Below, one piece after another: positions 18,836 through 44,037 of a stretch of DNA of 53,162 bases. A program made the translations under genes and the position numbers. Source of the stretch: a virus; the IMG/VR virus record IMGVR_UViG_3300011114_000999, positions 1-53,162 of that record; one strand, written 5' to 3'. Positions within the stretch are counted from its first letter, which is position 1. The number at the start of each line of letters is the position of its first letter. The notes under the pieces were generated by a model. It was not told the origin of the DNA. It saw nothing but the letters and a program-made list of their open reading frames with translations, and did no database searches.

Positions 18836-19246
18836 TCAAATAGAAGCCAGTAAGAGATTATCTTCCTGGAGGCTAAGTTGATCACCAGTTGGTTTGTTAG
18901 TACCAGCTGCTTCTTCAGCTCTTTTGGCAGTACTGATTTTACCAAGGCGGATTGTAGTAATAGAAGTTACCACAATTTCCATACGGCTTAAGTACTTACC
19001 TTCTTTATCTTGCCAAGTTGTATAACGCAGTCGGTAGGTTAGACCAACTGTGTCGCCTTGGTTGTACTTATCGGCGATATTCTTTCCTACACCGTTGTAA
19101 GCAGTGAGAGGAATAGCAGAATCGCCATCACGTGCATCAACTGGAGCAACACGGAATTGTGTTACATCTAGTTGATCATTTGGTTGACGGTAGTTGATTT
19201 CAGATACAATTGTACCGATCAAATTACCGTTGTTAGCAGAAGACAT
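18836..19246 (-). CDS. Small SSB-like OB-fold protein (136 aa)
   Basis: Residues 7-100 follow the SSB pattern: GNLIGTIVSEINYR strand, DVTQFRVAPVDAR, IPLTAYNGVGKNIADKY, then GDTVGLTYRLRYTTWQDKEG with the typical W. The C-terminal 35 residues lack the acidic phenylalanine tip, so it would not recruit partners like classical SSB. It is a second or variant single-strand-binding protein next to the larger one at 3491-4225, perhaps an early-expressed form. Its 50-base leader closely resembles that of the 20551-20808 gene. Confidence 0.65.
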   Translation of the reverse strand: MSSANNGNLIGTIVSEINYRQPNDQLDVTQFRVAPVDARDGDSAIPLTAYNGVGKNIADKYNQGDTVGLTYRLRYTTWQDKEGKYLSRMEIVVTSITTIRLGKISTAKRAEEAAGTNKPTGDQLSLQEDNLLLASI

Positions 19247-19319
19247 GGTTGTTGTGCAAAGGAATAGTGCAGCATCCTGTCCCAGGCTGCAGTTGGGATA
19301 AACAGATAACTTTTAATCG

Positions 19320-19517
19320 TTAGCAGACAAAATTCTGATAACAATCACTTAGTACTGTTTGTAATTCTTTAACGCCAGTAGGCATCTCTTTTAAAGTAAC
19401 TACATCTACTTGGCACCACTTATTTCTTTTGAGGACTTCAAAATGAACTTGTGTGGACTGACCGTTGTACCAAGTAACACGATGACTTGGAAAGCATTCA
19501 GGAGACCAGGAAAGCAT
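19320..19517 (-). CDS. Hypothetical small protein (65 aa)
   Basis: A beta-rich start with a helix near the end (GVKELQTVLSDCYQNF) and three cysteines. Its start overlaps the very end of the 104-aa gene, and its leader contains one of the three stem-varying hairpins. No family recognised. Confidence 0.5.
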   Translation of the reverse strand: MLSWSPECFPSHRVTWYNGQSTQVHFEVLKRNKWCQVDVVTLKEMPTGVKELQTVLSDCYQNFVC

Positions 19518-19518
19518 A

Positions 19519-19833
19519 TTACTTTGAAATTGTGCAGTGCCTATCTCTGCGGGAGGCTTGTATTTTTTGACGGGCTATTGGAAACCAATCACGTTGACGT
19601 ATATATTTGATAATGCCTTTGATTTCAACAAGTGTTAAGTTACCAGTTGGCTCACACACCCCTGGGAACCACACTTCATAAGTAGGTTCTTGTCCTGGAT
19701 TGTTATCTGCCATTAATCCTGAATTTCTTGGGCCAGTAACAATAGATACTTCGCCAATAAATTCATCAATGTAAAGCAAATGATAACCACCTGGAACACT
19801 TGGATGTTCTTTCCAACCTTTGGTTAGATCCAT
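19519..19833 (-). CDS. Hypothetical protein (104 aa)
   Basis: ATG 19833 (MDLTKGWKEHPSV) is chosen because a GAGG lies five bases upstream and the extension to 19887 is just the translated leader hairpin. The protein is strand-rich with a final helix NLTLVEIKGIIKYIRQR and a basic tail. The tail codons also form the leader hairpin of the next gene. No family recognised. Confidence 0.6.
   Translation of the reverse strand: MDLTKGWKEHPSVPGGYHLLYIDEFIGEVSIVTGPRNSGLMADNNPGQEPTYEVWFPGVCEPTGNLTLVEIKGIIKYIRQRDWFPIARQKIQASRRDRHCTISK
19534..19550 (-). promoter_or_regulatory. Leader hairpin with conserved loop, copy 1
   Basis: On the minus strand GCAG-AGATAGGCA-CTGC forms a four-base-pair stem with a nine-base loop, 17 bases before the ATG at 19517. 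The loop matches copies at 19850 and 20484 while the stem differs. It lies in the last codons of the upstream gene. Confidence 0.55.
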
Positions 19834-19849
19834 AGATACCTCAATGTGT

Positions 19850-19866
19850 GCGGTGCTTATCTCCGC
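19850..19866 (-). promoter_or_regulatory. Leader hairpin with conserved loop, copy 2
   Basis: Minus strand GCGG-AGATAAGCA-CCGC, 17 bases before the ATG at 19833 and just inside the expected start of RNA from control module D. The A-to-G and T-to-C changes in the stem compensate relative to copy 1. Confidence 0.55.
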
Positions 19867-19879
19867 TAGAGCTAATAAT

Positions 19880-19937
19880 CGAAGCAAGTTAAATACATAA
19901 CTTACTCAATAAAACCAACAAAACATTAAAACGTAGT
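19880..19937 (-). promoter_or_regulatory. Early control module, copy D (two boxes, 52 bp apart)
   Basis: Minus strand ACTACG (complement of 19932-19937) and GCTTCG (complement of 19880-19885) are 52 bp apart with TTTTGTT and ATGTATTTAA between them. It precedes the hairpin leader of the 104-aa gene. An AAGTTA/TAACTT dyad surrounds the -10-like part. Confidence 0.6.
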
Positions 19938-19949
19938 GTTGGTAATAGC

Positions 19950-19971
19950 TAAGGGAGGCATTACACCTCCC
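19950..19971 (-). terminator. GGGAGG/CCTCCC hairpin after the 73-aa gene
   Basis: GGGAGG and CCTCCC with a seven-base loop lie eight bases after the stop of the 19979-20200 gene, and on the minus strand TTAGCTATTACC follows. A near-identical element is at 20518-20540. The lack of a T-run makes it a weak intrinsic terminator or an RNA-end stabiliser. Confidence 0.5.
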
Positions 19972-19978
19972 AGACCGT

Positions 19979-20200
19979 TTAAACGGATTCAGCTTTAAAC
20001 AGTTCAGCAACTGCTCTCTTTACTCTGGGTCGCGTTGCAAGGTACGCAACACCTGCTATCACAGCAGCAATTGTTGTTTTGGCCACTAAATGTTTTGAAT
20101 CCATATTGAATTCAGCTTGTGAAACTGCTTGTGCGGTGGCTTCTGCTGCTGTTTCTGCAGCAAAAAAAGCGTCTTCTGGATAGATAGTAAACATGTTCAA
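19979..20200 (-). CDS. Small membrane-associated protein (73 aa)
   Basis: An alanine-rich helix (FFAAETAAEATAQAVSQAEF) precedes a hydrophobic stretch TTIAAVIAGVAYLATRP (41-57) and a basic end. It is in line with other tiny membrane genes of this region. No family recognised. Confidence 0.55.
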   Translation of the reverse strand: MNMFTIYPEDAFFAAETAAEATAQAVSQAEFNMDSKHLVAKTTIAAVIAGVAYLATRPRVKRAVAELFKAESV

Positions 20201-20271
20201 TTAGGTTGAATAGGTTTGAATGCAGAAGAATTCTGCAGAAATCCATCAACAGTGATGGATAAGTGCAAAAA

Positions 20272-20469
20272 TCAAAGGTACTTCTTATCCATGCAGTACC
20301 ATGCGTCCCCTTGGATCGCACGGATGTGAACAAGTTGACGATTAGGTGTACGCCAACAGTTTTCAATTGCATGTGCATTAATCATTTTCTGGCCTGCTAC
20401 TGAGAGCAGCATGCCAAGACCAGTGCCCATGACAACGGCAAGGACAGGATTAACTAATGAATCGTTCAT
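20272..20469 (-). CDS. Small membrane protein (65 aa)
   Basis: The N-terminal half is hydrophobic and glycine-rich (VLAVVMGTGLGMLLSVAG) and the rest is polar with two cysteines. Its leader carries hairpin copy 3. No family recognised. Confidence 0.55.
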   Translation of the reverse strand: MNDSLVNPVLAVVMGTGLGMLLSVAGQKMINAHAIENCWRTPNRQLVHIRAIQGDAWYCMDKKYL

Positions 20470-20483
20470 TGAGTGAATGAAGT

Positions 20484-20502
20484 GCAGGTGCCCATCTCCT
20501 GC
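20484..20502 (-). promoter_or_regulatory. Leader hairpin with conserved loop, copy 3
   Basis: Minus strand GCAGG-AGATGGGCA-CCTGC, a five-base-pair stem with the same nine-base loop pattern AGATRRGCA, 15 bases before the ATG at 20469. Confidence 0.55.
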
Positions 20503-20517
20503 GGATTAGGCAATAAC

Positions 20518-20540
20518 TGAGGGAGGGCTTAAACCTCCCT
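20518..20540 (-). terminator. AGGGAGG/CCTCCCT hairpin after the 85-aa gene
   Basis: A seven-base-pair stem with a seven-base loop lies 11 bases after the stop of the 20551 gene, followed on the minus strand by CAGTTATTGCC, closely resembling the element at 19950-19971. Confidence 0.5.
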
Positions 20541-20550
20541 GTTGGTTTGA

Positions 20551-20808
20551 TTACCAATCAGCTTCTAGCTCAAGCTGATGCTTAAGCCATTTGATCAGAT
20601 CCCTGTTATTGGAAATGATCTTGTTAGCAACCACAATGAATGGTTGCATGTTGTCTGTACCTAAATCTAGGAAAGCTTCAAAAGCATCCAAGAATTCAAG
20701 TCGAAATTGTTCCAGCTCACGATCAACCAAAGGTCGGTGCTCACTGGAATCTCTGCGTGCCAGGAGTCTTAAATCCTGGAGCATGTTATACACAGCGGTG
20801 GTGGACAT
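20551..20808 (-). CDS. Helical hypothetical protein (85 aa)
   Basis: ATG 20808 (MSTTAVYNMLQDLRLLARRD) is chosen; the longer frame reads through a repeated leader. The protein is all helix, charged and tryptophan-ended (IKWLKHQLELEADW). It is driven by control module G and has the CAGC/GCTG leader shared with the SSB-like gene. No family recognised. Confidence 0.6.
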   Translation of the reverse strand: MSTTAVYNMLQDLRLLARRDSSEHRPLVDRELEQFRLEFLDAFEAFLDLGTDNMQPFIVVANKIISNNRDLIKWLKHQLELEADW

Positions 20809-20863
20809 AACTGTGGTGCAAAGGAATAAACAGCATCCAAGGCCAGGCTGTAGTTGGCCGAAA

Positions 20864-29024: not shown

Positions 29025-29936
29025 ATGGGATCCTCAAAACCGCCATCGCCAACAGTTATTTACTCGCCGCCTCCTCCTCCGCCAACGACAACCGACGTAC
29101 CTTCACAGTCTTATGAGACTCAAGTACGCTTGGATGAGATCGCTAATGCACAGGCGCGTGCAAATGCAGAATTTGGCGCAGAAATAGATCGCAGTCAAAA
29201 CGAATTCTTTACTAATCAAGACATTAGAAGGGAGCAGGCCTCCGCTGGCGAACAGCGGATGACAATAGGAAAACAGGGTGAAGAGGAACGTGCAACAGTA
29301 TTAGCAAAAGGTGAACAAGAACGTTCAACACAGAGGGAACGTTATGCTGGGGAACAAGTTTTAATAGGTGCTAGAGGTAAAGAAGAACGTTTAGGTATTG
29401 AAACTTCAGGCGCCCAACAACGTTTGGGTATTATTGAATCAGGTTCTCAACAACGTTTAGGAATTCAAGAAACTGGTAAAGAAGAACGTTCAACACAGAG
29501 GGAACGTTATGCTGGGGAACAAGTTTTAATAGGTGCTAGAGGTAAAGAAGAACGTTTAGGTATTGAAACTTCAGGCGCCCAACAACGTTTGGGTATTATT
29601 GAATCAGGTTCTCAACAACGTTTAGGAATTCAAGAAACTGGTAAAGAAGAACGTTCAACACAGAGGGAACGTTATGCTGGCGAAGAATCTTTAACTAAAG
29701 TTAAAGGAACAGAAGAACGTTCTGCAATTAGGGAAACTGGTAGTGAGACACGTTCTACTGTTCAAACCAGTGGTACAGAACAACGTTTAGGAATTAGAAC
29801 TGCAGGAGAAGAAGAAAGAGAAACTATCGGTAAATCAGCAACCGAACAACGGGCTTCTGATTTACAGAAAGAGATGTTTAGGCGTTATGCGGAAAATAGA
29901 GATTACGAACAAGCCCAGAATCAGTATCGAACATGA
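29025..29936 (+). CDS. Coiled-coil repeat protein with exact internal duplication (303 aa)
   Basis: After a proline-rich start (VIYSPPPPPP), residues 100-220 consist of 11-residue units such as RLGIETSGAQQ, RLGIIESGSQQ and RLGIQETGKEE. A 55-residue block occurs twice identically and a third time in part. The charged R/E/Q/G units suggest a long fibrous coiled coil. It precedes the small terminase with an ATGA overlap. Probably structural or a packaging accessory; family not recognised. Confidence 0.65.
   Translation: MGSSKPPSPTVIYSPPPPPPTTTDVPSQSYETQVRLDEIANAQARANAEFGAEIDRSQNEFFTNQDIRREQASAGEQRMTIGKQGEEERATVLAKGEQERSTQRERYAGEQVLIGARGKEERLGIETSGAQQRLGIIESGSQQRLGIQETGKEERSTQRERYAGEQVLIGARGKEERLGIETSGAQQRLGIIESGSQQRLGIQETGKEERSTQRERYAGEESLTKVKGTEERSAIRETGSETRSTVQTSGTEQRLGIRTAGEEERETIGKSATEQRASDLQKEMFRRYAENRDYEQAQNQYRT
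29322..29681 (+). repeat. 165-bp exact tandem repeat (two copies plus a partial third)
   Basis: Blocks starting at 29322, 29487 and 29652 are identical at the DNA level for two full periods (165 bp) and for about 30 bases of the third. Perfect identity implies recent duplication or active homogenisation. Confidence 0.9.
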
Positions 29937-30418
29937 TTACCTGGATCGAAGAATTAACAGAGAAGGAAAGAGAATCTTTCCATGCGTTTTGCAAGAAAAC
30001 GCTATCACCAATACAAATGTATCTCTACGCAAGGTTTCTAGGTTTTACTGGAAGCATAGTTGAGTGTGATGAATGGGCGCAGAAAATTCATTCAAAGAAA
30101 AACTTTAATGCCATATTAGAAGAAGAAATTGATTTAATGCAGTTAGACATTTCAAAGTTACGTGATGCAATTGATCTTGGAATGGTTAAACAAGATATGG
30201 GTACGGCACGGATTGCCATGTTGCAAAAAGAATTACGCGGCTCAATAAAACAAATAAATGATGAAAAGGTTTTAACAGATAAACAAGGATTGATTCTTGC
30301 CGGTGCGGATCGCGCCTTACGAGAGATGCTATCAATCTTTCGTGACGACCCTATTGAAGGACCACTTCAAGAAGCGTCCATGGGTGTATGGACAAAAATA
30401 TTGGCAGAAGAGTCTTAA
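29933..30418 (+). CDS. Putative terminase small subunit (161 aa)
   Basis: The gene lies 25 bases before TerL, overlaps the previous gene by ATGA, and encodes an acidic/basic helical protein with a possible N-terminal helix-turn-helix (SPIQMYLYARFLGFTG) and an oligomerisation-type helical centre. This is the usual place and size of TerS, which recognises the packaging site and activates TerL. No sequence signature proves it. Confidence 0.6.
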   Translation: MITWIEELTEKERESFHAFCKKTLSPIQMYLYARFLGFTGSIVECDEWAQKIHSKKNFNAILEEEIDLMQLDISKLRDAIDLGMVKQDMGTARIAMLQKELRGSIKQINDEKVLTDKQGLILAGADRALREMLSIFRDDPIEGPLQEASMGVWTKILAEES

Positions 30419-30442
30419 GGTTTAGTGCATTAAGCTGATGGC

Positions 30443-32905
30443 ATGGCAGGTACATCCCTTTACTCCGTTTACCGGAGGACCGCACGTGCTGCAGCAAAAC
30501 AACAGATAGTAAAAAAAAGTTCCGATATTGATATTGAGCGGGCAAGGAAAGATTTTGCTTATTTCTGTACGGTAGTTGGGGACAAGCCACCAGCAACACA
30601 CCATCTTCTTTGGCACCAACACTTATGTACCGGAAATAGCTCAGAATGTTTAATTGATATAGCTGGCCCAAACGTAGATATACTGGGACCCAGGGGTAGT
30701 GCAAAAAGTACAATTTTAGGTTTATTTACAGCGTGGACAATAGGTGTACATGCTTTAAACAAAAAACCGTTAAAAATTCTTTATATTTCTTACACTGTTG
30801 ATGTAGCCAGACCAAAGAGTGCTGCCATTAAAAGAATCATAGAAGAAAGTAAAACATATAAAGAAGTGTTCCCAATGGTAAAAATTGCTAAGGGAATCAA
30901 TAGTAATGAATACTGGAGTATTGATTGGAAGTTTGCTGGCATTAGATCTACCGGTGAAGAAGAATTTACTCTTTGCTGCGCTGGGTTAAAAGGTGCTGTA
31001 ACTTCAAAACGTAGCCATTTGTGTCTGACAGGTGATACATTTGTCAATACGCAACACGGCTCCATTCCGATCCATGACCTGTATCAACAACCAAAAGATT
31101 ATAGAGTCAGCACGTACAACCCAGAAACAAGTTCCGTTGAGTGGTCAGGAATACATGCAGTGTCTAGACGCCTTGCCGACCGGTTTATCCACGTGGAAAC
31201 AAGCACTGGAGATCTCATACGGACAACTCCAGAACACCCTTTTTATATCCCAGGGCGAGGAATTGTGTGCGCTAAAGATCTCAAAGCTGGGGACCGACTG
31301 CTTAGTTATTCCGATTGCCTTCAAAATAAAAATAAAAACAAGTTGTCCAACCTGTCAAACAAACTTTCAGGTAAATACAAACTGGAGACAGATAGCCCGA
31401 AACAGCAAAATAAAAATGTTTTTCTGTTCAAAAAAATGTGCAGGAAAATACAAACAAATTTTGTTTCCAAAGATTTGCCCGGAATGCAATCAGAGTTTCC
31501 AACCAAGAAACTCGGAAAGCGTTTACTGTACAAAAATTTGTTCCTCCAAAGTGCATTCCAGAATGATGAAGGGGAAGTGGAACTCAAATTGGCGGCACGG
31601 TATGAGCAGGCCAAAACTACCGGAGCTGCGGGAATTAATTTTAAAAAGGGACAATATGACCTGTTCTCTATGCAATATCAAGGAACAAATGTTGACTGCA
31701 AAAAATCAACACGTAAGAACCAACTTAGTCGTTCATCACATCGATGCAAATCCGAAGAACAATGTATTACAAAATTTAATCACTGTCTGCAGGCCCTGCC
31801 ACACAAGCTATCATCAATTAGCAGAAAAAGCAAAGATAGTGGAGCTACCATTTCCGCCATTTCAGAAATTAGCAGCGGAGAGGAGTATGTCTATGACCTT
31901 GAAACAGAATCTACAAACCATAACTTCTTTGCGGGTAAAGGTAAGTTCTGTGTAGCAAATTGTATAATAGATGACCCGATTAAGAGCTCTGACGACATTA
32001 AGAACAGGGATATCCGAGTAGCAATGGAAGATAACTGGAACTCAGTTATTACTCCTACAATGTTTGAAGGTGGGCGTGCAATTTGCCTTGGTACTAGATT
32101 TCGACATGATGATGTTCACGCCAGTACTTTTACACCGGGTAACGATTGGGTTCAAATTGTTCAGTCTGCAATAACAGTAGATGATCAAGGAGAAGAAGTT
32201 TCTTATTGGCCGGAAATGTGGTCTCTTGAGTACTTACAAGACCGTCGTCGTCAGGCTCCTATAAGTTTTAGTTTTCAATATCAAAATCAAATTGTACAAA
32301 CAAGTGAGCTATCAGTATCTCCAGATTTAATTGTTAAAGGTCAAATTGCTACTCAGTTTGATTCTTTGGGTATTGGTGTTGATTTATCTGCTGGGGTGAA
32401 GGAACGAAATGACTATACTGTTTTTGTTATGGGCGGAAGGGTTGGCGACAAGATTCATATTATTGATTGCAAACGAATCAGGATTATGGGTAACCTAGAA
32501 AAATTAGAAGCGTTAATGGAAATGATGTATGAGTGGGGAGTTGTTCACAAAGACGGAAAAGATTACCATCCTACTGGTAACACTATTGATGTATGGTCTG
32601 AAGCTGTAGCCTATCAAGCATCTTTAGAAGCTGATTTTAGAAGAATATGTCAAGGTGATCACGGACTGTATAACGTTAATTGGCATCCTGTTAAAGGATT
32701 TCGCGGAGACAAAGTAGCGCGTTTCAGGGGAATTATGGGTTTATTTGAACAACGTAAGCTAATCTTTAACAGGTACCGTAAATTTATGGCCTTAACCGAT
32801 GAGATTGTAAATTTCGGTGTTAGTTCTCACGATGATTGTGTTGATGCTTTAATTTGGCTTTGTAATGGTTTAATGACCAGAGGAAAACTAGAGCTAGAGT
32901 ATTGA
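30443..32905 (+). CDS. Terminase large subunit interrupted by an intein (820 aa precursor)
   Basis: The extein parts sum to 507 residues, the normal TerL size. Walker A is GPRGSAKST (82-90). Residues 188-193 (SKRSHL) join after splicing to CIIDDPIKSSDD, the Walker B region. The nuclease domain begins at GVDLSAGVKERND with the last acidic site in SSHDDCVDAL. TerL cuts the genome concatemer and pumps DNA into the procapsid. The insert 194-506 has Hint splicing motifs (see intein entry). A function needing both ATPase halves joined implies splicing is required for packaging. Confidence 0.93.
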   Translation: MAGTSLYSVYRRTARAAAKQQIVKKSSDIDIERARKDFAYFCTVVGDKPPATHHLLWHQHLCTGNSSECLIDIAGPNVDILGPRGSAKSTILGLFTAWTIGVHALNKKPLKILYISYTVDVARPKSAAIKRIIEESKTYKEVFPMVKIAKGINSNEYWSIDWKFAGIRSTGEEEFTLCCAGLKGAVTSKRSHLCLTGDTFVNTQHGSIPIHDLYQQPKDYRVSTYNPETSSVEWSGIHAVSRRLADRFIHVETSTGDLIRTTPEHPFYIPGRGIVCAKDLKAGDRLLSYSDCLQNKNKNKLSNLSNKLSGKYKLETDSPKQQNKNVFLFKKMCRKIQTNFVSKDLPGMQSEFPTKKLGKRLLYKNLFLQSAFQNDEGEVELKLAARYEQAKTTGAAGINFKKGQYDLFSMQYQGTNVDCKKSTRKNQLSRSSHRCKSEEQCITKFNHCLQALPHKLSSISRKSKDSGATISAISEISSGEEYVYDLETESTNHNFFAGKGKFCVANCIIDDPIKSSDDIKNRDIRVAMEDNWNSVITPTMFEGGRAICLGTRFRHDDVHASTFTPGNDWVQIVQSAITVDDQGEEVSYWPEMWSLEYLQDRRRQAPISFSFQYQNQIVQTSELSVSPDLIVKGQIATQFDSLGIGVDLSAGVKERNDYTVFVMGGRVGDKIHIIDCKRIRIMGNLEKLEALMEMMYEWGVVHKDGKDYHPTGNTIDVWSEAVAYQASLEADFRRICQGDHGLYNVNWHPVKGFRGDKVARFRGIMGLFEQRKLIFNRYRKFMALTDEIVNFGVSSHDDCVDALIWLCNGLMTRGKLELEY
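31147..31157 (+). promoter_or_regulatory. Candidate internal ribosome site for the nested HNH gene
   Basis: AGGA (31147-31150) lies four bases before ATG 31155, which is in the HNH frame, not the terminase frame. It is the best start for that frame; GTG 31032 and ATG 31074 have no such signal. Confidence 0.4.
31155..31955 (+). CDS. HNH homing endonuclease nested in the intein in the +1 frame (266 aa)
   Basis: This frame encodes two Cys4 zinc knuckles (CPTC...FCSKKC; CPEC...YCTKIC), then W.SNW..G and an HNH core: LILKRDNMTCSLC, VVHHIDANPKNNVLQNLI and CRPCHTSYH, with both metal histidines, the asparagines and the four cysteines. It ends at TAG 31953-31955, five bases before the intein ends. 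From GTG 31032 it would be 307 aa. The endonuclease would cut intein-less terL alleles to spread the intein. It must be translated independently or through frameshifting, since the main frame differs. The reading is unusual but the motifs are complete. Confidence 0.85.
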   Translation: MQCLDALPTGLSTWKQALEISYGQLQNTLFISQGEELCALKISKLGTDCLVIPIAFKIKIKTSCPTCQTNFQVNTNWRQIARNSKIKMFFCSKKCAGKYKQILFPKICPECNQSFQPRNSESVYCTKICSSKVHSRMMKGKWNSNWRHGMSRPKLPELRELILKRDNMTCSLCNIKEQMLTAKNQHVRTNLVVHHIDANPKNNVLQNLITVCRPCHTSYHQLAEKAKIVELPFPPFQKLAAERSMSMTLKQNLQTITSLRVKVSSV

Positions 32906-32935
32906 CGCAACTTAAACTTATACAAACACTCAAAA

Positions 32936-33118
32936 ATGTCTACCGGCTATTACGTCATCGAGCTTGAACAGGATGCTTACGGCTCCGCCCTGCTCCCACT
33001 TCCCGACGAACTTTGTCACGACATGTCCCTCACCCCTGGGGAACAATTTGATGTCGAGGTAGAGGACGATGTGATTACATTCAAAAGATTGCACGCTGGT
33101 TACGAAATTGAGGCATAA
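32936..33118 (+). CDS. AbrB/MazE-like small DNA-binding protein in the late operon (60 aa)
   Basis: The pattern LPLPDELCHDMSLTPGEQFDVE (about residues 21-42) followed by a short strand (DDVITFKRL) is the swapped-hairpin AbrB fold. It lies between TerL and portal with 30 and 24 bases on either side. A DNA-binding regulator among packaging genes could act as a late switch or antitoxin; there is no toxin-like neighbour. A similar protein is encoded at the left end of the window. Confidence 0.6.
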   Translation: MSTGYYVIELEQDAYGSALLPLPDELCHDMSLTPGEQFDVEVEDDVITFKRLHAGYEIEA

Positions 33119-33142
33119 TAGAGAAACAGGTATTTTTCAAAA

Positions 33143-35407
33143 ATGAGCGATAGCAAGTCAGCGTTAGATTCTATCCTCAAATCCGTTGTTAATCGAGACG
33201 GAGGTGGCTCTGCGGACACCATGTTGGTGAATGCTCACCTTGCCCAGATGAAAATGTTTGGGATTCGTCAAGGCGTGGAATTTTATCCTGAACAGGATAA
33301 CTTTGGTACACAGCGATTTGATTTTGTTCAACAAGTAATTCGTTTTAATAAACTTGATGCAAGGTTGGATTCCATTTGGGATCGGTTCCTCTCATTTGGA
33401 AAAGGCTTATTCTATATAAGGCCTACTAAAAAAACTTATCGTTTATATTGGTTTGATAAAGATGCTTACCGTTCATACTACAGCGCCGATGGTGAACTAG
33501 AAGAAGTAGTAATTATCTACCCTTATAAAGTAAAGTCGAATCGTGGTTTTTCCGGGGTAGGTTTATCAACAGATAAACGTTACATGAGATTAAGAATTAC
33601 AGCAACTGAAATTGAAGAGTATCATAGCGAACAAGAATTAAATTTTGAGTCAACATTAGAGTTTGCAACGTTAGGAAAAAAGACAGTTGTAAACACAATG
33701 CAATTTATCCCTTGCGTTGAGGTTTTTAATAATCCAGATGCTTTTGGTACTGAGGGTAGTGGGGAATTTGAGTGGTTGAGTAATCAAATTATTGCTCACG
33801 ATGAGATGGTAAAAAATATCAGAGCTAATCTTTCTTTCTTTGGAAATCCAACTTTACTGTCTTCTCGCCCCAAACAAGACATTATTGAACAAAAAGATGG
33901 AGATGTTTCTCAAAGGCCAAGTATTGCAAGCCAATCTGGTTTCCAATCTGATTTTCCGCTTTCGAGTTCTACTTATCGCCAAGACAATGTAACCAGGCAA
34001 AATCCTGGATACATTGGAAAACCTGGCACTGGTATGCGGGTACCGCGTGTTATTGCAAACCTTGAGCCAACAGATCGTGTTGGTTTTATTACCCCTAATG
34101 CAATAAGCACTGACCAAGCAAGATACGCAGAACAGTTGAGATCTGAGATACGCCTAGCTCTTGGCGGTATTGACGACTTAAGTATTACAAACGTAACTGC
34201 TACTGAAATTAAATCAGCTTATGGTCGTGTAAGTGCGACAGCTAAGAAAAAATGTTTACAAATTTATACGTATGGAATTTGTAGATGTTTTGAATTAATG
34301 ATTTTTCAAGAAGAACAAATATTTAGAAAAACACTTGCTTTTAGTACCGGCCTGAAATACCCAGATCCACCTGAAGACTCAGAAGATCCAAAACTTCAAG
34401 CAAAGTATGAGAAAGCAAAAGATAAGTATGAACAGGGTTTACAGGCCGCAATTGATAATGCAGTACAAACAAAAACAATACCGCCGGGGGTTTTAGGTCT
34501 TGCCCCAGATGGCGATAGAACTGTTTGTTGGCGTTGGATGGGTCCTGTTTATGAGGACACCGCCCAAGATAAACTTAACCAATCTATCTTTACACGTAAC
34601 CTACAGGAATTAGGTGTTGATAGCATTGAAGCACTGAAGTATTTGTTCCCTTCAAAAACGGACGACGAAATCGCAGGCATGCTCTCCGGTTTCCCGTTCC
34701 GCATGGTGGGTGAAGTACAGAGGGCGATGTCTACATTCATTGACCTGGTTAACCAGGAAATGAGGACCCCGCATCCGCAGCAGCCGGACATACCGATGGC
34801 TGCGGACCCACGTCTTGATCTTACACCGTTCCTTTACCGAACTCTCGAAAGCCTACAAAAAGAGGTAACCTATGCAGGCCGATACCGCAATGCCGACCCA
34901 ATCGGCACCCCAAGTATCCCAGACCCAACCGATCAGCTACGCGGCTCCAGTTTCTCAAACAGCAGCCTACGCACCGACGGTTTCAACAACGTCCCAATGG
35001 GTGGCGCCTTACCAACAGGTAACGGCCCCAGCACCGCAAATGCAGGCCCAGATGGGCGTCCCCCAAACGCAATACAGCCCTACAGCGTCGTACCCCCAAG
35101 CTTACCAGGCGTCCCCACAATCGCCCCAGTCGGAGAATCCTTACAAGGAGGCATTCAATCGGGTAGTAGGACTCCTGAGTTCGCCGGTCCAATTCCCGTT
35201 CCAGGGTCAACAGTCTCAAACGAGTCCTCAGTACGCCCCGGCCAACTACAGTTCCCAAGTGGCTCCCCAGTACAACAACGCGGGGACGCAGACTTATACG
35301 CCTGGGATCAACAGCAACCAGGGTTACTCCAACGGTTATTCCCAAACTTCTCAGGAACTGACCAGGGACCAGCTCCAAGCAAACGGAGTAAGCGAAGCAA
35401 GTCTTAG
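33143..35407 (+). CDS. Portal protein (754 aa)
   Basis: Position after TerL, size and an all-helical/beta body support portal: FDFVQQVIRFNKLDARLDSIW, the GTGMRVPRVIANLEPTDRVGF stretch and a long acidic/basic helix (SEDPKLQAKYEKAKDKYE) typical of the crown or wing. Portals form the dodecameric ring through which TerL pumps DNA. From about residue 577 on, the sequence is P/G/S-rich and disordered and overlaps the scaffold gene in another frame. So the conserved portal fold ends before the overlap and the tail may be dispensable. Confidence 0.85.
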   Translation: MSDSKSALDSILKSVVNRDGGGSADTMLVNAHLAQMKMFGIRQGVEFYPEQDNFGTQRFDFVQQVIRFNKLDARLDSIWDRFLSFGKGLFYIRPTKKTYRLYWFDKDAYRSYYSADGELEEVVIIYPYKVKSNRGFSGVGLSTDKRYMRLRITATEIEEYHSEQELNFESTLEFATLGKKTVVNTMQFIPCVEVFNNPDAFGTEGSGEFEWLSNQIIAHDEMVKNIRANLSFFGNPTLLSSRPKQDIIEQKDGDVSQRPSIASQSGFQSDFPLSSSTYRQDNVTRQNPGYIGKPGTGMRVPRVIANLEPTDRVGFITPNAISTDQARYAEQLRSEIRLALGGIDDLSITNVTATEIKSAYGRVSATAKKKCLQIYTYGICRCFELMIFQEEQIFRKTLAFSTGLKYPDPPEDSEDPKLQAKYEKAKDKYEQGLQAAIDNAVQTKTIPPGVLGLAPDGDRTVCWRWMGPVYEDTAQDKLNQSIFTRNLQELGVDSIEALKYLFPSKTDDEIAGMLSGFPFRMVGEVQRAMSTFIDLVNQEMRTPHPQQPDIPMAADPRLDLTPFLYRTLESLQKEVTYAGRYRNADPIGTPSIPDPTDQLRGSSFSNSSLRTDGFNNVPMGGALPTGNGPSTANAGPDGRPPNAIQPYSVVPPSLPGVPTIAPVGESLQGGIQSGSRTPEFAGPIPVPGSTVSNESSVRPGQLQFPSGSPVQQRGDADLYAWDQQQPGLLQRLFPNFSGTDQGPAPSKRSKRSKS
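34861..34866 (+). promoter_or_regulatory. Shine-Dalgarno of the scaffold gene inside portal
   Basis: AGAGGT lies five bases before ATG 34872, well inside the portal coding frame. It supports a real independent start for the overlapping gene. Confidence 0.6.
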
Positions 35408-36867: not shown

Positions 36868-38010
36868 ATGTTTATCGATAACGACTTTCCCAAGCTGTTG
36901 GGCGCGGAGCTGTACCGCCCCCACCCAGCGTATATCGTGGAGATGGCGGCTGAGCCCGTTGTGGTCCATGACTTCACTAAACAGCCAGGACAGACTGTGC
37001 AGCTGGACCGTTATCGTTTCTGGGGTAACCCTGGAACAAAGACCAGCCGCGAGCGTACCCAAGATCAAACTATCGGTACAGCTAGCAGCCGTGCAATCGT
37101 AAAAGACAAGGTTCTTGTTTCTTTGCGCGAGTACACTGGTCCTGCCGACCCTAACAATACAAACCTTCCCAGCACCTTCAAGATTGCTAGGGAAACCCTG
37201 ATGACCGCTCAGCGTCTTCTTTTGGACTCCGGGAACCTTAATATGTTCCACCAGTCCATTGGTTCGTTGACACTTCTAGATGATTATCGTCGCTGGAGGG
37301 ACCGCGTGTTCCTTGACGAGATGGCAAAATCAGAATCCCGTGGTGCATCTGGCGACACACAGGGCGGTTACTACTACCCCAATGGTAAGGCCAAGTCTTC
37401 TTCTACCGTACTTAGCTCTTATAGTGCTACCGAATACGCTTCTGAGCGTTATAAGTTTAACGTAAAGACCGACCTCCTAGAGGTTGTTCGTCAATTGCGT
37501 AAGCGTAACGTTCCTGTATTCCAAGACGGTTACTATCGCTGTATTGCTGACCCTTCTTTCATGAAGGATCTGCGTGCTGATCAAGGCTTCCGTGAAATTG
37601 CCCGCTACCCAGGTATGGGTCAAGGCAACCCTCTCATGGGTGCTGCTGGTCCTAACCAGGCAATTTATGGTGGTGGTCAATACGGTCAAGCAATGTTTGT
37701 TGCTGGCGAGCCCGTAATGCCTACCGGATTTGTATTTGAAGGAGTACGCTTCTTCGAGTCAACCAACTTTGCTGAAAAATCCATCACTTGTGATATTGGC
37801 GATGGTAACGGTGCCATTACTCACACCACTCCTCCAGGGCTGTTCTTTGGTCCTCAGGCAGTAGGCGTTGGTATCGGTGGCCCTAACGCCCAGGTTCTAA
37901 TTAACAACAACGATGACTTTAGCCGTTTCATTATCTTGATCTGGCAACTGTACGCTGGTTTTGCTAATTTGAACAAGGACTTTATCACCTCTGCTTTCAC
38001 CGTTATTTGA
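36868..38010 (+). CDS. Putative major capsid protein (380 aa)
   Basis: Size, position after scaffold, own promoter, and a high use of G/C-ending codons point to the main capsid protein. The N-terminal part (VQLDRYRFWGNPGTKTSRER, then VLVSLREYTGPADPN near 90) looks like an N-arm and E-loop of an HK97-type fold, similar in my reading to N4-like capsid proteins. I cannot align it, so the assignment is contextual. The next gene may be a decoration protein. Confidence 0.75.
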   Translation: MFIDNDFPKLLGAELYRPHPAYIVEMAAEPVVVHDFTKQPGQTVQLDRYRFWGNPGTKTSRERTQDQTIGTASSRAIVKDKVLVSLREYTGPADPNNTNLPSTFKIARETLMTAQRLLLDSGNLNMFHQSIGSLTLLDDYRRWRDRVFLDEMAKSESRGASGDTQGGYYYPNGKAKSSSTVLSSYSATEYASERYKFNVKTDLLEVVRQLRKRNVPVFQDGYYRCIADPSFMKDLRADQGFREIARYPGMGQGNPLMGAAGPNQAIYGGGQYGQAMFVAGEPVMPTGFVFEGVRFFESTNFAEKSITCDIGDGNGAITHTTPPGLFFGPQAVGVGIGGPNAQVLINNNDDFSRFIILIWQLYAGFANLNKDFITSAFTVI

Positions 38011-38029
38011 GAATAAGAGGTACTAACAA

Positions 38030-38860
38030 ATGGCAACTTACAAATCAAATGCTGGAAACATTCTCCAGCCAGGCGCTCAAATCAATCGCCTTTCTTCATA
38101 CAACGTAGAAGGTGTTTATGGTTGGCCAGGTATCGAAGCGTATGAGCTGGTTGGTTATGTAAAGATTAGCAATTTAGTTGCCGACAGGGCAAGCTACAAG
38201 AGCTTTGATATTACTGTACCCTCACCAGATCGTCGTGTTGACGACCGTGTACGTGATAACCGTACTTCATTGGTTGTCAATGCTTCTACTTTGCGCCCAG
38301 CCTACGTGTACGGTGCTTCTATAGCCGTAGCACAAGACATTCCTTCCGGTGGTGCAGTAGGATTCCCCGCGTCTCCTGTAACTGCAGACATCGGCGGAAC
38401 GACTAGCGACCTTCTTTTCCTTGGCCCTAATAACAGCGGTGTTCCCTTTGGTATACCTAGTTCACAGGCCAATGGTTTGGCTGCTGCTTCCTCTTACCTA
38501 ACTGCTGCTTCTAACCTATTTACTCAGGGTTCAGCTGCTGTTACAGGTGGTGGTACAGCGGGCATCGCTCCCTTCCCTACTACCGTTACTACTGCAGGTA
38601 TTGTTGCTGCTGACCTTGCGAACTCTATGTTCTACAAGGTGACTGCAGACACGACCTTCAAGGTGTTTAGCACCACTGGTGTTACTGCAACCACTGTTAA
38701 CGGTGCTGGCGTCTTTATCAGCGCAGCTGATTCTGATGCTGGTAAGGCTGGTTACTTGTTGTGCCGGGTTAATTACCTGCGCCCAGCAGCCGCTGTTTCC
38801 TGGAACGACATCCAGGGCTTCATTGACTTTGCTTCTCAGGTTGGCGGTAGCGATACCTGA
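38030..38860 (+). CDS. Putative capsid decoration or minor capsid protein (276 aa)
   Basis: An all-beta, G/S/T/A-rich protein with codon use like the capsid gene, 19 bases after it, with AAGAGG as Shine-Dalgarno. It probably coats the capsid surface or joins the head. The middle is glycine/threonine-rich (VTGGGTAGIAPFPTTVTT). No family recognised. Confidence 0.6.
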   Translation: MATYKSNAGNILQPGAQINRLSSYNVEGVYGWPGIEAYELVGYVKISNLVADRASYKSFDITVPSPDRRVDDRVRDNRTSLVVNASTLRPAYVYGASIAVAQDIPSGGAVGFPASPVTADIGGTTSDLLFLGPNNSGVPFGIPSSQANGLAAASSYLTAASNLFTQGSAAVTGGGTAGIAPFPTTVTTAGIVAADLANSMFYKVTADTTFKVFSTTGVTATTVNGAGVFISAADSDAGKAGYLLCRVNYLRPAAAVSWNDIQGFIDFASQVGGSDT

Positions 38861-40502: not shown

Positions 40503-41162
40503 ATGTCAGAAAAATCTATTGTTGATGTAGGTAAGTTTCTTCAGAAATATGGATTAAAGATTGGCGAACACCCTGCTTTTGGGAAAGTCTCCAATGTGCA
40601 TACAAAAGGTTCTTACCATTACACCCCAGGTGGCTCTGCAATTGATGTTACTGATTGGAGACCGGACATAGCACCTGCTTACGAAGGAGGTCCTTCTAAG
40701 AGCTGGAAACAGCGCACAGGGGAGTTGTCTTGGCGTGCTAAAAAGTTAGGTGCCTTTACCGAAGCACTTGGGCCTGGTGACCCCGGCCATGACACACATG
40801 TGCATTTAGCGTTAGCAAAAAACGCTCCCCTATCTGAGCAACAATTAGAATGGCTTGCAACTGGTAGATATAAGACCCCAGACGGTAAGCTTTCTAGCTC
40901 CCTTCCTACTAGCTATTCCACCGGCCAATCCCCATCACCTACTCCGGCGCAGGCAGCACAACCTCAAACCGCACCGCAAGGAACAGGCAACACAATTGTT
41001 CTTGTTCCTGGTATGCCTAATCAACAAAAAACCAGTGAAGATTACCTTACTGATTTTCTTTCAAAGAACTTTACTAAAACGAGTACAGGTAATACACAGC
41101 CTCAAATTGACCCAATTGCAGCGTTAAGACAGGCCTTTAATACACCCTCTACTTTTGAATAA
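40503..41162 (+). CDS. M15-like peptidase (peptidoglycan hydrolase, 219 aa)
   Basis: SYHYTPGGSAIDV (37-49) and HDTHVHLAL (96-104) match the metal and catalytic pattern of M15-type D-Ala-D-Ala or L-Ala-D-Glu peptidases (HxxxxxxxxD...HxH). The C-terminal tail repeats that of the preceding transglycosylase (GNTIVLVPG, EDYLTDFLSK, QIDPIAALRQAF). The pair likely attacks glycan and peptide bonds together. Confidence 0.75.
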   Translation: MSEKSIVDVGKFLQKYGLKIGEHPAFGKVSNVHTKGSYHYTPGGSAIDVTDWRPDIAPAYEGGPSKSWKQRTGELSWRAKKLGAFTEALGPGDPGHDTHVHLALAKNAPLSEQQLEWLATGRYKTPDGKLSSSLPTSYSTGQSPSPTPAQAAQPQTAPQGTGNTIVLVPGMPNQQKTSEDYLTDFLSKNFTKTSTGNTQPQIDPIAALRQAFNTPSTFE

Positions 41163-41461
41163 TGAGATTCGCTCAAGTCCCTGGTTACGAACCGAGCTTT
41201 CCCGTTACCTACGGTAATTTATATGGAGACAGCACGTTAACTACTGCAGGTTTTAGTGACCCATTTAACATGAAACGCACTGAGAAAATAATGCATTGTC
41301 CATACGTAGTCTCTTACAATGGTATTGAGGAGCCACGGTTCCAACTAAACAACCCAGCTTATATGAGGGAGGTTGACCGCTCTCATAGCGACCCACTGCC
41401 TCCAGTTGGGTTAAGCCGTAACTCAAGACAAAACGATTTACATGGCGTATACAAAACCTGA
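41162..41461 (+). CDS. Hypothetical protein before the endonuclease cassette (99 aa)
   Basis: An aromatic, polar protein (VPGYEPSFPVTYGNLYGD) without known family. Its final residues SRQNDLHGVYKT resemble the end of the endonuclease (GSRQNQVH), as if this 3' end had been duplicated with the endonuclease. The following truncated gene starts inside its last codons. Confidence 0.6.
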   Translation: MRFAQVPGYEPSFPVTYGNLYGDSTLTTAGFSDPFNMKRTEKIMHCPYVVSYNGIEEPRFQLNNPAYMREVDRSHSDPLPPVGLSRNSRQNDLHGVYKT

Positions 41462-41525
41462 ACTTAGGGAACGACTTAAGAATCGAATAAAATCCGGTTC
41501 TAAAGGAGGTAAACCAGGGCAATGA
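41442..41525 (+). pseudogene. 5' fragment of a DUF5872-like basic protein gene (27 codons)
   Basis: MAYTKPELRERLKNRIKSGS then KGGKPGQ and a TGA stop. This equals the first part of the gene at 42162-42470. Fifteen bases on, the frame resumes as RKAQTS (AGAAAAGCACAA) before TAATG into the endonuclease. So it is a truncated copy broken at the same point (before RKAQ) as the downstream gene. A 27-residue peptide would be made at most. Confidence 0.65.
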
Positions 41526-42676: not shown

Positions 42677-43008
42677 GTATACATGGACAACGAACAGTAA
42701 GAAAAAAACTTGCTGACCATGCTGAGGATAGGAGAAGACGACCAGATGAGAGGCCAGCAAATAGACCTCAAGCAGACCTTGGCTATACCCTCGGTGTACG
42801 TCAAGACTCTTTACCTTTTGACGAACCATTAAAAACCAACGCTGAAAAATTTGTCTCTCCTCAACGAATTAATCAAAAAAAACAACGAATGGCCGGTGAT
42901 GTATTAGGCGCTTTAAACTATGATATAAAACAAGGTACTGGACTACCGTCTGCATTTAAACAATTGCAAGTCGGCAGTTCTGAACTCCGTAACCCCGAAA
43001 TTTCTTAG
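42673..43008 (+). CDS. Basic hypothetical protein (111 aa)
   Basis: Arginine-rich start (GQRTVRKKLADHAEDRRRRP), then polar. ATGA overlap with the gene before it. Part of a row of small basic genes around the endonuclease. No family recognised. Confidence 0.6.
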   Translation: MSIHGQRTVRKKLADHAEDRRRRPDERPANRPQADLGYTLGVRQDSLPFDEPLKTNAEKFVSPQRINQKKQRMAGDVLGALNYDIKQGTGLPSAFKQLQVGSSELRNPEIS

Positions 43009-43263: not shown

Positions 43264-44037
43264 TTGTCGTCATCCTCTTCAAACAAGCAGCCTATGCTTA
43301 TTGATAGGCCTGCTAATTTAAGCACCCTAGTTACGGTAGCATCTGGTCAGTTATTTTCTACAAGCTTAATACCAACGGCAATTGGAAACTGCACAAAAGT
43401 TTTTGATTGCGATTCATCACAAACAGATACCTCAATTAGTGGAGCATATATAGATGAAATATGGTTCCGTTATACAAAAAATAGTAATACTTTTATAGAT
43501 GCACAGACCGCTGGCGCTGGGACATACGCTCAAACAGGTACAACTTCAGTAGTTGTAACGTTAGCTAATCATAATCTACGTGTTGGCCAGAAAGTAGGAC
43601 TTGATTATACAAGTGGTTCTGCTGTTGATGAAATTGCGGTTGTTTCTGCAGTAACATCTACAACATTTACAGTTACTAGCGCAGGAACTTTAACAACAAG
43701 CGGAAACGTAAGTGTATACCAACCAACTGATTTCGGGTTCTATTTATTAAATACATCAACAATTACTAATACCAACCAGTTTTTTCCTTTGTTTGTTGCA
43801 AGCGTACCGTCAACTTATGATAACGTTGAGTACAGTCTTACTACAAATTTAGTTCTTCCTTTGATCAATCACCCAGTACCGCAAGCCGGGGCAAACTTTA
43901 GTAGTACTAATAGTACTGTATCTCCAAAAATGCGCGGGTTAATGTTACAACGTGGACAAGCTTTATATGTTTCTGTTAGTGGTACAACCTCATTAACAAA
44001 TGGTTTTTACTGTAACGTACAAGCTGGTTATTACTAA
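43264..44037 (+). CDS. Tail-region structural protein with one FCCH-like beta module (257 aa)
   Basis: Begins at TTG 43264 (SSSSSNKQPMLIDRPANL) or ATG 43294. The region around residues 75-155 (TTSVVVTLANHNLRVGQKVG ... STTFTVTSAG) is a beta module like those in the next gene, similar to FCCH-type repeats seen in phage tail proteins. The remainder is beta-rich with N/T/S. Probably a tail or neck protein. Confidence 0.6.
   Translation: MSSSSSNKQPMLIDRPANLSTLVTVASGQLFSTSLIPTAIGNCTKVFDCDSSQTDTSISGAYIDEIWFRYTKNSNTFIDAQTAGAGTYAQTGTTSVVVTLANHNLRVGQKVGLDYTSGSAVDEIAVVSAVTSTTFTVTSAGTLTTSGNVSVYQPTDFGFYLLNTSTITNTNQFFPLFVASVPSTYDNVEYSLTTNLVLPLINHPVPQAGANFSSTNSTVSPKMRGLMLQRGQALYVSVSGTTSLTNGFYCNVQAGYY

Follow-up and report, generated by a model that had tools for sequence, protein, structure and literature searches.

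The window analyzed here, a viral contig of 53,162 bases, has three short hairpins in front of start codons on its minus strand, and the question that this locus raises is what such repeated RNA structures are for. An earlier note on this DNA had described them as stems that change in a base-pairing manner around a constant loop, AGATRRGCA, 15–17 bases ahead of a start codon, and had proposed an RNA function, for example a binding site for a translational regulator or an early phage RNA-binding protein. The contig has many proteins in common with the Synechococcus phage S-EIV1, most strongly in the terminase and structural region of the latter. All three hairpin sequences are present on the minus strand where they had been placed, and their distances to the ATG are close to the proposed ones: 14 nt for the hairpin ending at 20484 (ATG at 20469), and 16 nt for each of those ending at 19850 (ATG at 19833) and 19534 (ATG at 19517). 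Their number is far above chance: with a stem of at least 4 bp, AGATRRGCA hairpins occur three times in the window, compared with none in 288, one in 11 and two in one of the 300 first-order Markov windows that served as the chance control. The two matches to AGATRRGCA on the plus strand of the window have no stem. Furthermore, in loci retrieved by protein similarity alone (L001–L017), the same motif precedes various genes, and the stem is paired at every copy near a start.

The AGAU portion of the loop is indeed conserved, but the loop is not unpaired: RRGCA pairs with UGCYY located 7–10 nt upstream, which is possible in nearly all relatives, and the simple hairpin with a constant loop was dropped for this reason. 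The order of the module becomes S1a UGCCY - L1 - S2a GCGG - AGAU - S1b RGGCA - S2b CCGC, so that each site is an H-type pseudoknot or a two-state switch. Among 128 copies picked from relatives by S1 alone, 127 have the stem originally noticed (S2) completely paired, with alternative sequences such as GTGG/CCAC, AGGG/CCCT and GAGG/CCTC, in line with the compensating changes claimed for it. S1 shows compensating changes as well (GCCU:AGGC, GCCC:GGGC, GCU:AGC and UACCC:GGGUA, the last being the S-EIV1 form), and in the alignment one of its pairs is represented by 16 GC and 5 AU, and another by 9 CG, 7 UA and 3 UG. Judged by its crossing stems, both with double-sided changes, the module is an H-type pseudoknot. 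Given that the third loop is only 0–1 nt long, S1 and S2 may alternate instead of coexisting; the two are about equally stable, and the RNAfold prediction is S1 for some copies but S2 for others. In IMG/VR, 102 stretches carry GCGGAGATRRGCACCGCAC and 14 carry the 5-bp form. Taken together, the covariation, the position before starts and the presence in more than 100 viral stretches strongly support the suggestion of a function at the RNA level.

A host or bacterial element was considered and rejected: in a search of 85,000 bacterial genomes confined to the AGAU pattern, the 19-mer turned up at 13 scattered sites, not one of them accompanied by S-EIV1-like proteins, and those inspected lack the flanking structure. 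A phage contig of 66% GC without S-EIV1-like proteins (L083, 681–2163) carries four AGAU pseudoknots, each preceded by a CCCGAG-CTCGGG hairpin, suggesting that the AGAU module may occur outside cyanophages.

In addition to the second pairing, the earlier note missed an entire half of the element. Within the 130 nt upstream of the AGAU matches in IMG/VR, there is a second conserved structure, which begins where the preceding gene ends, at its stop codon. In this tRNA-like domain, P1, the short arm P2 and a third arm capped by a 7-nt loop meet at a three-way junction (loops, e.g., UGCAAAC, AUCGAAU or UUCGAUU). Among 139 copies selected for a 7-nt loop and a stem of at least 5, with no loop sequence prescribed and 7–17 nt allowed, the 3' strand from the loop to the discriminator is 12 nt long in 114 copies, 13 nt in 24 and 14 nt in one; C56 is present in 134, R57 and A58 in 138 each, and the discriminator A in 118. 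In a larger set, an A precedes UU in 253 of 290 copies. The exceptions comprise about 13% of copies without an A before UU and about 12% with a 13-nt 3' strand. By its sequence, this fold is the top half of a tRNA, with a 12-bp acceptor/T stack, a 7-nt T-loop, a discriminator A and no anticodon arm. The D region is small or stemless; in the UUC-loop class, it is often a stemless ARGGUGYA, and GG is found there in 48 of 59 copies of this class, whereas the UGC and AUC classes differ.

The pairing of this domain is equally open to statistical assessment. Among 128 copies found with a pattern that is silent on the T-stem, the four variable positions adjoining the two fixed GC pairs are paired in every copy, and the fifth is paired in 127, with 4–5 pair types at each position and shuffle means of 54–100. 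In a structure-registered alignment of the whole element (A2, 21 diverse copies), 98.9% of cells are paired and 15 of 25 pairs show double-sided change; none of 500 shuffles was as good, and slid controls reached 37–45%. The counts are based on an ungapped class-A alignment and on structure-registered scripts, the ungapped alignment being used because MAFFT alignment of all types shifted the T-loop of one class by one column. A strict structural scan that included A/UURCC (here and below, the slash marks the predicted boundary) found 264 copies in 4.1 Mb, whereas the reversed sequence yielded none. A covariance-model search yielded 238 matches from 91 sources, many with other leaders downstream. 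The evidence is comparative-genomic throughout, and the copies are related.

Rfam covariance models gave no match to the element, either at the gathering threshold or at E up to 5–10. A tRNA (RF00005) was rejected on this account and for the absence of an anticodon arm, and ARAGORN detected no tRNA or tmRNA gene in 20 loci. A known riboswitch likewise has no Rfam match, and the downstream genes belong to diverse phage families, which speaks against a riboswitch. An intrinsic terminator is not supported either, the T-arm being followed by the P1 strand and A-UURCC with no U-run. Megablast of the region against phages returned no match.

In the window, where all features described here are on the minus strand, the hairpin ending at 20484 is part of a complete element (20563–20484). 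Its tRNA-like domain (20515–20563; covariance model R1, 52 bits, E 3e-9) is made of P1 (AGCUGA 20563–20558 with UCAGUU 20520–20515), P2 (UUGGU 20557–20553 with ACCAA 20546–20542) and a T-arm (GGGAGG 20539–20534, T-loop UUUAAGC 20533–20527, CCUCCC 20526–20521), and the RNAfold minimum free energy structure is the same three-way junction. The stop codon UAA (20553–20551) of the gene at 20551–20808 falls within P2. The discriminator-like A 20514 is followed by U 20513, and the predicted boundary, or putative cleavage point, is at 20513–20514. The AGAU pseudoknot comes next (20484–20512; S1 UGCCU 20512–20508 with GGGCA 20493–20489, S2 GCAGG 20502–20498 with CCUGC 20488–20484, L1 AAUCC, L2 AGAU), in front of a gene for a 65 aa protein with no PHROG match (20272–20469). 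A second tRNA-like domain (19947–19994; R1, 35.7 bits, E 2e-5; RNAfold z -3.7) is located at the 3' end of the gene 19979–20194, with the stop codon UAA (19981–19979) in P2, AGCUGA paired with UUAGCU in P1, and the T-arm GGGAGG-UGUAAUG-CCUCCC; it is followed by A 19946 and then UUACC, with no AGAU module.

The two remaining hairpins are AGAU pseudoknots as well. The one at 19850–19872 (S1 GCU 19872–19870/AGC 19857–19855, S2 GCGG 19866–19863/CCGC 19853–19850) precedes the gene 19519–19833 and lies directly downstream of an AT-rich promoter-like repeat, and the one at 19534–19557 (S1 GCCU 19557–19554/AGGC 19542–19539, S2 GCAG/CUGC) lies inside the 3' end of that same gene, before the gene 19320–19517. 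The AT-rich sequence, ending in TGTATTTAA(A)..TGCTTCG, is repeated upstream of genes at approximately 18185–18150, 19910–19875 and 20895–20865 and is probably a phage promoter; at two of these three places, an AGAU or GGAU leader stands directly behind it. In some other contigs (L047, L056, L102 and L019), a conserved GGGGGCTGCGCATCCTAACAACGCAGACAC, which may mark the start of a transcript or belong to another 5' structure, is found before the AGAU module where the tRNA-like domain is absent.

The GGAU leaders form a second family that is unrelated to the AGAU module, with an S1 of 5 bp, an L1 of 4 nt, an S2 of 5 bp and a YNGGAU-like L3, and both stems of this pseudoknot covary. In the window, it is found at 20830–20859 (S1 GGCCA/UGGCC, S2 ACAGC/GCUGU), before the gene 20551–20808, and at 19269–19298 (S1 UCCCA/UGGGA, S2 GCAGC/GCUGC), before the SSB-like gene 18836–19246, which it also precedes in relatives; in other phages (L145, L152, L165 and L168), it precedes MTEQFEAQFKNFHRVNPHVYEQLK-type genes, and in L395, it directly follows a tRNA-like domain. 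S-EIV1 (L177) has a repeated leader of a third kind, GTCC-AAGCATGACATTAAACTGCTT-like, in front of at least four genes (upstream of 29657–30466, 32790–33554, 36999–38756 and 42715–42957), one of which encodes the ssDNA-binding protein, and a related GCCUGYCCUGGC...GGRUC leader stands behind tRNA-like domains in L310, L312 and L338. Two further similar leaders on the minus strand of S-EIV1 (~40712–40790 and 41409–41480), CCCTGGGC...GGTRTAAGTCCCAGG, look like another structured RNA and have no Rfam match.

Like a t-element, the element is a tRNA-like fold between genes. The upstream open frame ends within 15 nt of the P1 start in 274 of 290 copies, its stop codon overlapping the 5' strand of P1 in 232, and a downstream start codon is present in 272. 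A hairpin starts exactly 2 nt after the A in 278 of 286 copies, compared with 22% of control UURCC sites. The 5' module that follows A/UU can be an AGAU pseudoknot, a 7-bp hairpin with the loop ACUGA (e.g., GCCACAC-ACUGA-GUGUGGC) or a 5-bp hairpin of other sequence; the fact that unrelated hairpins fill the same place after the tRNA-like half suggests a general 5'-end function and not one recognition sequence. The two halves also differ in the genes with which they are associated. The T-loop class is linked to the upstream gene family (AMI 0.163, shuffled maximum 0.050) and not to the downstream one (0.024), and the 5' module to the downstream family (0.173, maximum 0.050) and less so to the upstream one (0.071), these effects being moderate and computed on related sequences. 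The gene families were clustered with corrected starts, not with false starts inside the pseudoknot, giving 68 downstream clusters. Thus, the tRNA-like half goes with the gene upstream and the leader with the gene downstream, placing the boundary at A/UU; together with the hairpin position, these associations indicate that the element consists of two units that meet at this point. One record (G032) contains nine copies in 2.3 kb. In S-EIV1, the annotated ATG of AHV82201.1 (43496–43732) is inside an AGAU pseudoknot (GGAGATGGGTACC), and the actual start is likely a GTG further down (CCTGTG).

The element is present in the S-EIV1 lineage, including the window, and in isolated T7-like cyanophages. 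S-EIV1 itself has two copies, one of them with the predicted boundary at 43454/43453, and of the 137 loci that carry the domain, 127 also code for S-EIV1-like proteins. The same architecture is found in the isolates 9515-10a (AGCUAG ... CUAGCU A/UU-ACCUCAC-ACUGA-GUGAGGU), NATL2A-133, S-RIP2, KBS-P-1A, S-SBP1, P-SSP7, Syn5 and S-CBP42, the last with five copies in tandem; many isolates have just one or two. In P-SSP7 (A/UU at 20680/20681) and Syn5 (19884/19885), the gene immediately behind it is that of the major capsid protein, and in S-SBP1 it likewise precedes the capsid gene. When single isolates are scanned with looser structural criteria, the background amounts to about 0–4 false positives per genome, so that in such scans only copies with A/UU and a hairpin or with a covariance-model match should be counted. 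The covariance model found no match in the non-cyanobacterial phages T7, lambda, T4, Roseobacter CRP-125, Pelagibacter HTVC309P and LUZ100, nor in the cyanophages S-PM2, Syn9 and S-TIM5, nor in Pf-WMP3 and P60. A search of IMG/VR with the T-loop only revealed, among the matches listed, additional compact copies with full 12-bp stacks in other contigs, beside genuine tRNAs. Two contigs with 12-bp tRNA-like domains followed by an A/UUGCCAU-hairpin (L331, 1558; L408, 571) may come from other phages or prophages.

The fold, the position and the two-unit architecture are established by comparative sequence analysis. As to function, we consider it moderately probable that this two-part intercistronic element is a tRNA-like punctuation of phage mRNAs, similar to t-elements and cut by the host RNase Z. 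In phages of ocean and lake cyanobacteria, the element between genes probably lets host tRNA-processing enzymes cut long polycistronic messages into protected single-gene pieces. Specifically, a host tRNA-handling enzyme, most likely RNase Z (tRNase Z), would read the domain and cut on the 3' side of the discriminator, as it does in pre-tRNAs that lack CCA, leaving the upstream mRNA with a compact tRNA-like 3' end and its stop codon retained, and the downstream mRNA with a UU-hairpin 5' end that would resist 5'-end-dependent decay. Both the cleavage and the identity of the enzyme are inferred. RNase Z is favored here because it recognizes the acceptor/T stack and, in precursors without CCA, cleaves just behind the discriminator. 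RNase P might process this kind of fold as well; given the position of the stop codon, its cut would sever that codon, whereas a cut by RNase Z would leave it in place. Cyanobacteria possess an RNase Z (Synechocystis slr0050; PMC3161902, citing Ceballos-Chavez and Vioque 2005). That the 5' modules differ in sequence but agree in starting two bases after the proposed cut suits the protection of a new 5' end. AGAU pseudoknots without a tRNA-like domain (19534–19557 in the window, and those of L083) indicate that the 5' module is not solely a product of the A/UU cut; where they lie directly behind promoters, they would provide the same kind of 5' end on primary transcripts.

The same modular boundary of processing and stability could instead be cut by another nuclease, i.e., RNase E or a different endonuclease followed by trimming up to the structures, in which case the tRNA-like fold would serve only as a roadblock on the 3' side, and the hairpin would shield the 5' end. 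Structure flanks the short linker on both sides and the boundary evidence fits such a scheme, as does the report that host RNase E increases during P-SSP7 infection, with the phage RNAs being protected (PMC9692554). A plain hairpin would be enough for a roadblock, however, leaving the 12-nt rule, C56-R57-A58 and the discriminator A unexplained, and we regard this explanation as fairly unlikely. Translational control, with the AGAU pseudoknot or hairpin as an operator for a phage or host protein, a ribosome stand-by site or a coupling element, is unlikely in our view: the constant proximity to a start codon, the strong conservation of AGAU within the pseudoknot class and the switch-like balance of S1 and S2 would be expected of it, but sequence-unrelated hairpins occupy the same place, the downstream genes are spread over many clusters and the tRNA-like half is unaccounted for. 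No finding supports the binding site that the earlier note had envisaged, be it for a specific regulator of translation or for an early RNA-binding protein.

The tRNA-like half might also be a mimic in a role that does not involve cutting, such as CCA addition, binding of EF-Tu or a synthetase, or ribosome recycling and re-initiation at the overlapping stop. The top-half fold of tRNA is what CCA-adding, EF-Tu and synthetase-type factors recognize, and the stop codon lies in P1 or P2; yet no CCA is encoded, and a cut better explains the UU after the discriminator and the exact point at which the 5' module begins. We regard such a role as very unlikely. Finally, a DNA-level recombination site that shuffles small gene cassettes, comparable to the mobile regulatory cassettes of T4 or integron attC, could account for one downstream family being found beside many upstream families (42 copies, 18 upstream families). 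This appears highly improbable, given that the copies diverge but keep RNA pairing including G-U, and that they lie on the same strand as the mRNAs of the genes around them; cassette shuffling may be a by-product.

The closest precedent for the proposed RNase Z punctuation is the t-element upstream of 5S rRNA in Haloferax, where the cut by tRNase Z forms the 5' end of 5S rRNA (PMC4326828); related t-element processing signals are known from plant mitochondria (PMC8003010). In t-elements and mitochondrial tRNA punctuation, as proposed here, an intergenic tRNA-like fold marks the processing point, whereas the phage element occurs in many copies between small genes, has no anticodon arm, embeds a stop codon and is always coupled to a structured 5' module, with the processing being predicted. 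The tRNA-like domain of tmRNA has an acceptor stem, a T-arm and a reduced D region without an anticodon arm, all of which the phage element shares; unlike tmRNA, it has no tag ORF and no ARAGORN tmRNA prediction, and is part of mRNA spacers. Intergenic RNase III sites of T7 are phage RNA structures that guide a host nuclease in dividing the transcript. The element of cyanophages is likewise an intergenic structure and a proposed host-nuclease target, but its fold is different, with no long duplex, and is not found in T7. The leader of T4 gene 32 mRNA contains a pseudoknot, as do the leaders described here, among which the GGAU family precedes the SSB-like gene of the window; the window pseudoknots differ in sequence and are shared by multiple genes, with no evidence of autoregulation. 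The C4 RNA of P1/P7 is a phage RNA that is an RNase P substrate (PMC11143913), and thus is linked to a tRNA-processing enzyme, as predicted for the cyanophage element, but it differs in being an antisense regulator. We found no phage precedent for the element in the open-access literature.

The element corrects gene starts that were previously called inside it. It would represent a widespread RNA class, not included in Rfam, in abundant aquatic viruses, among them the model isolates P-SSP7 and Syn5. More tentatively, one can envisage a virus-wide tRNA punctuation in picocyanobacterial phages, whereby anticodon-less tRNA mimics that carry stop codons, are cut by the host RNase Z and possibly receive a CCA tail would turn each small gene into an independent mRNA, tRNA-like at its 3' end and folded at its 5' end, and allow free shuffling of cassettes at the A/UU boundary. 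If cut as proposed, the element would extend the organelle principle of tRNA punctuation to bacteriophages, and would suggest how dense cyanophage messages survive when host RNase E is elevated, and how small orphan genes can be shuffled as self-contained units.
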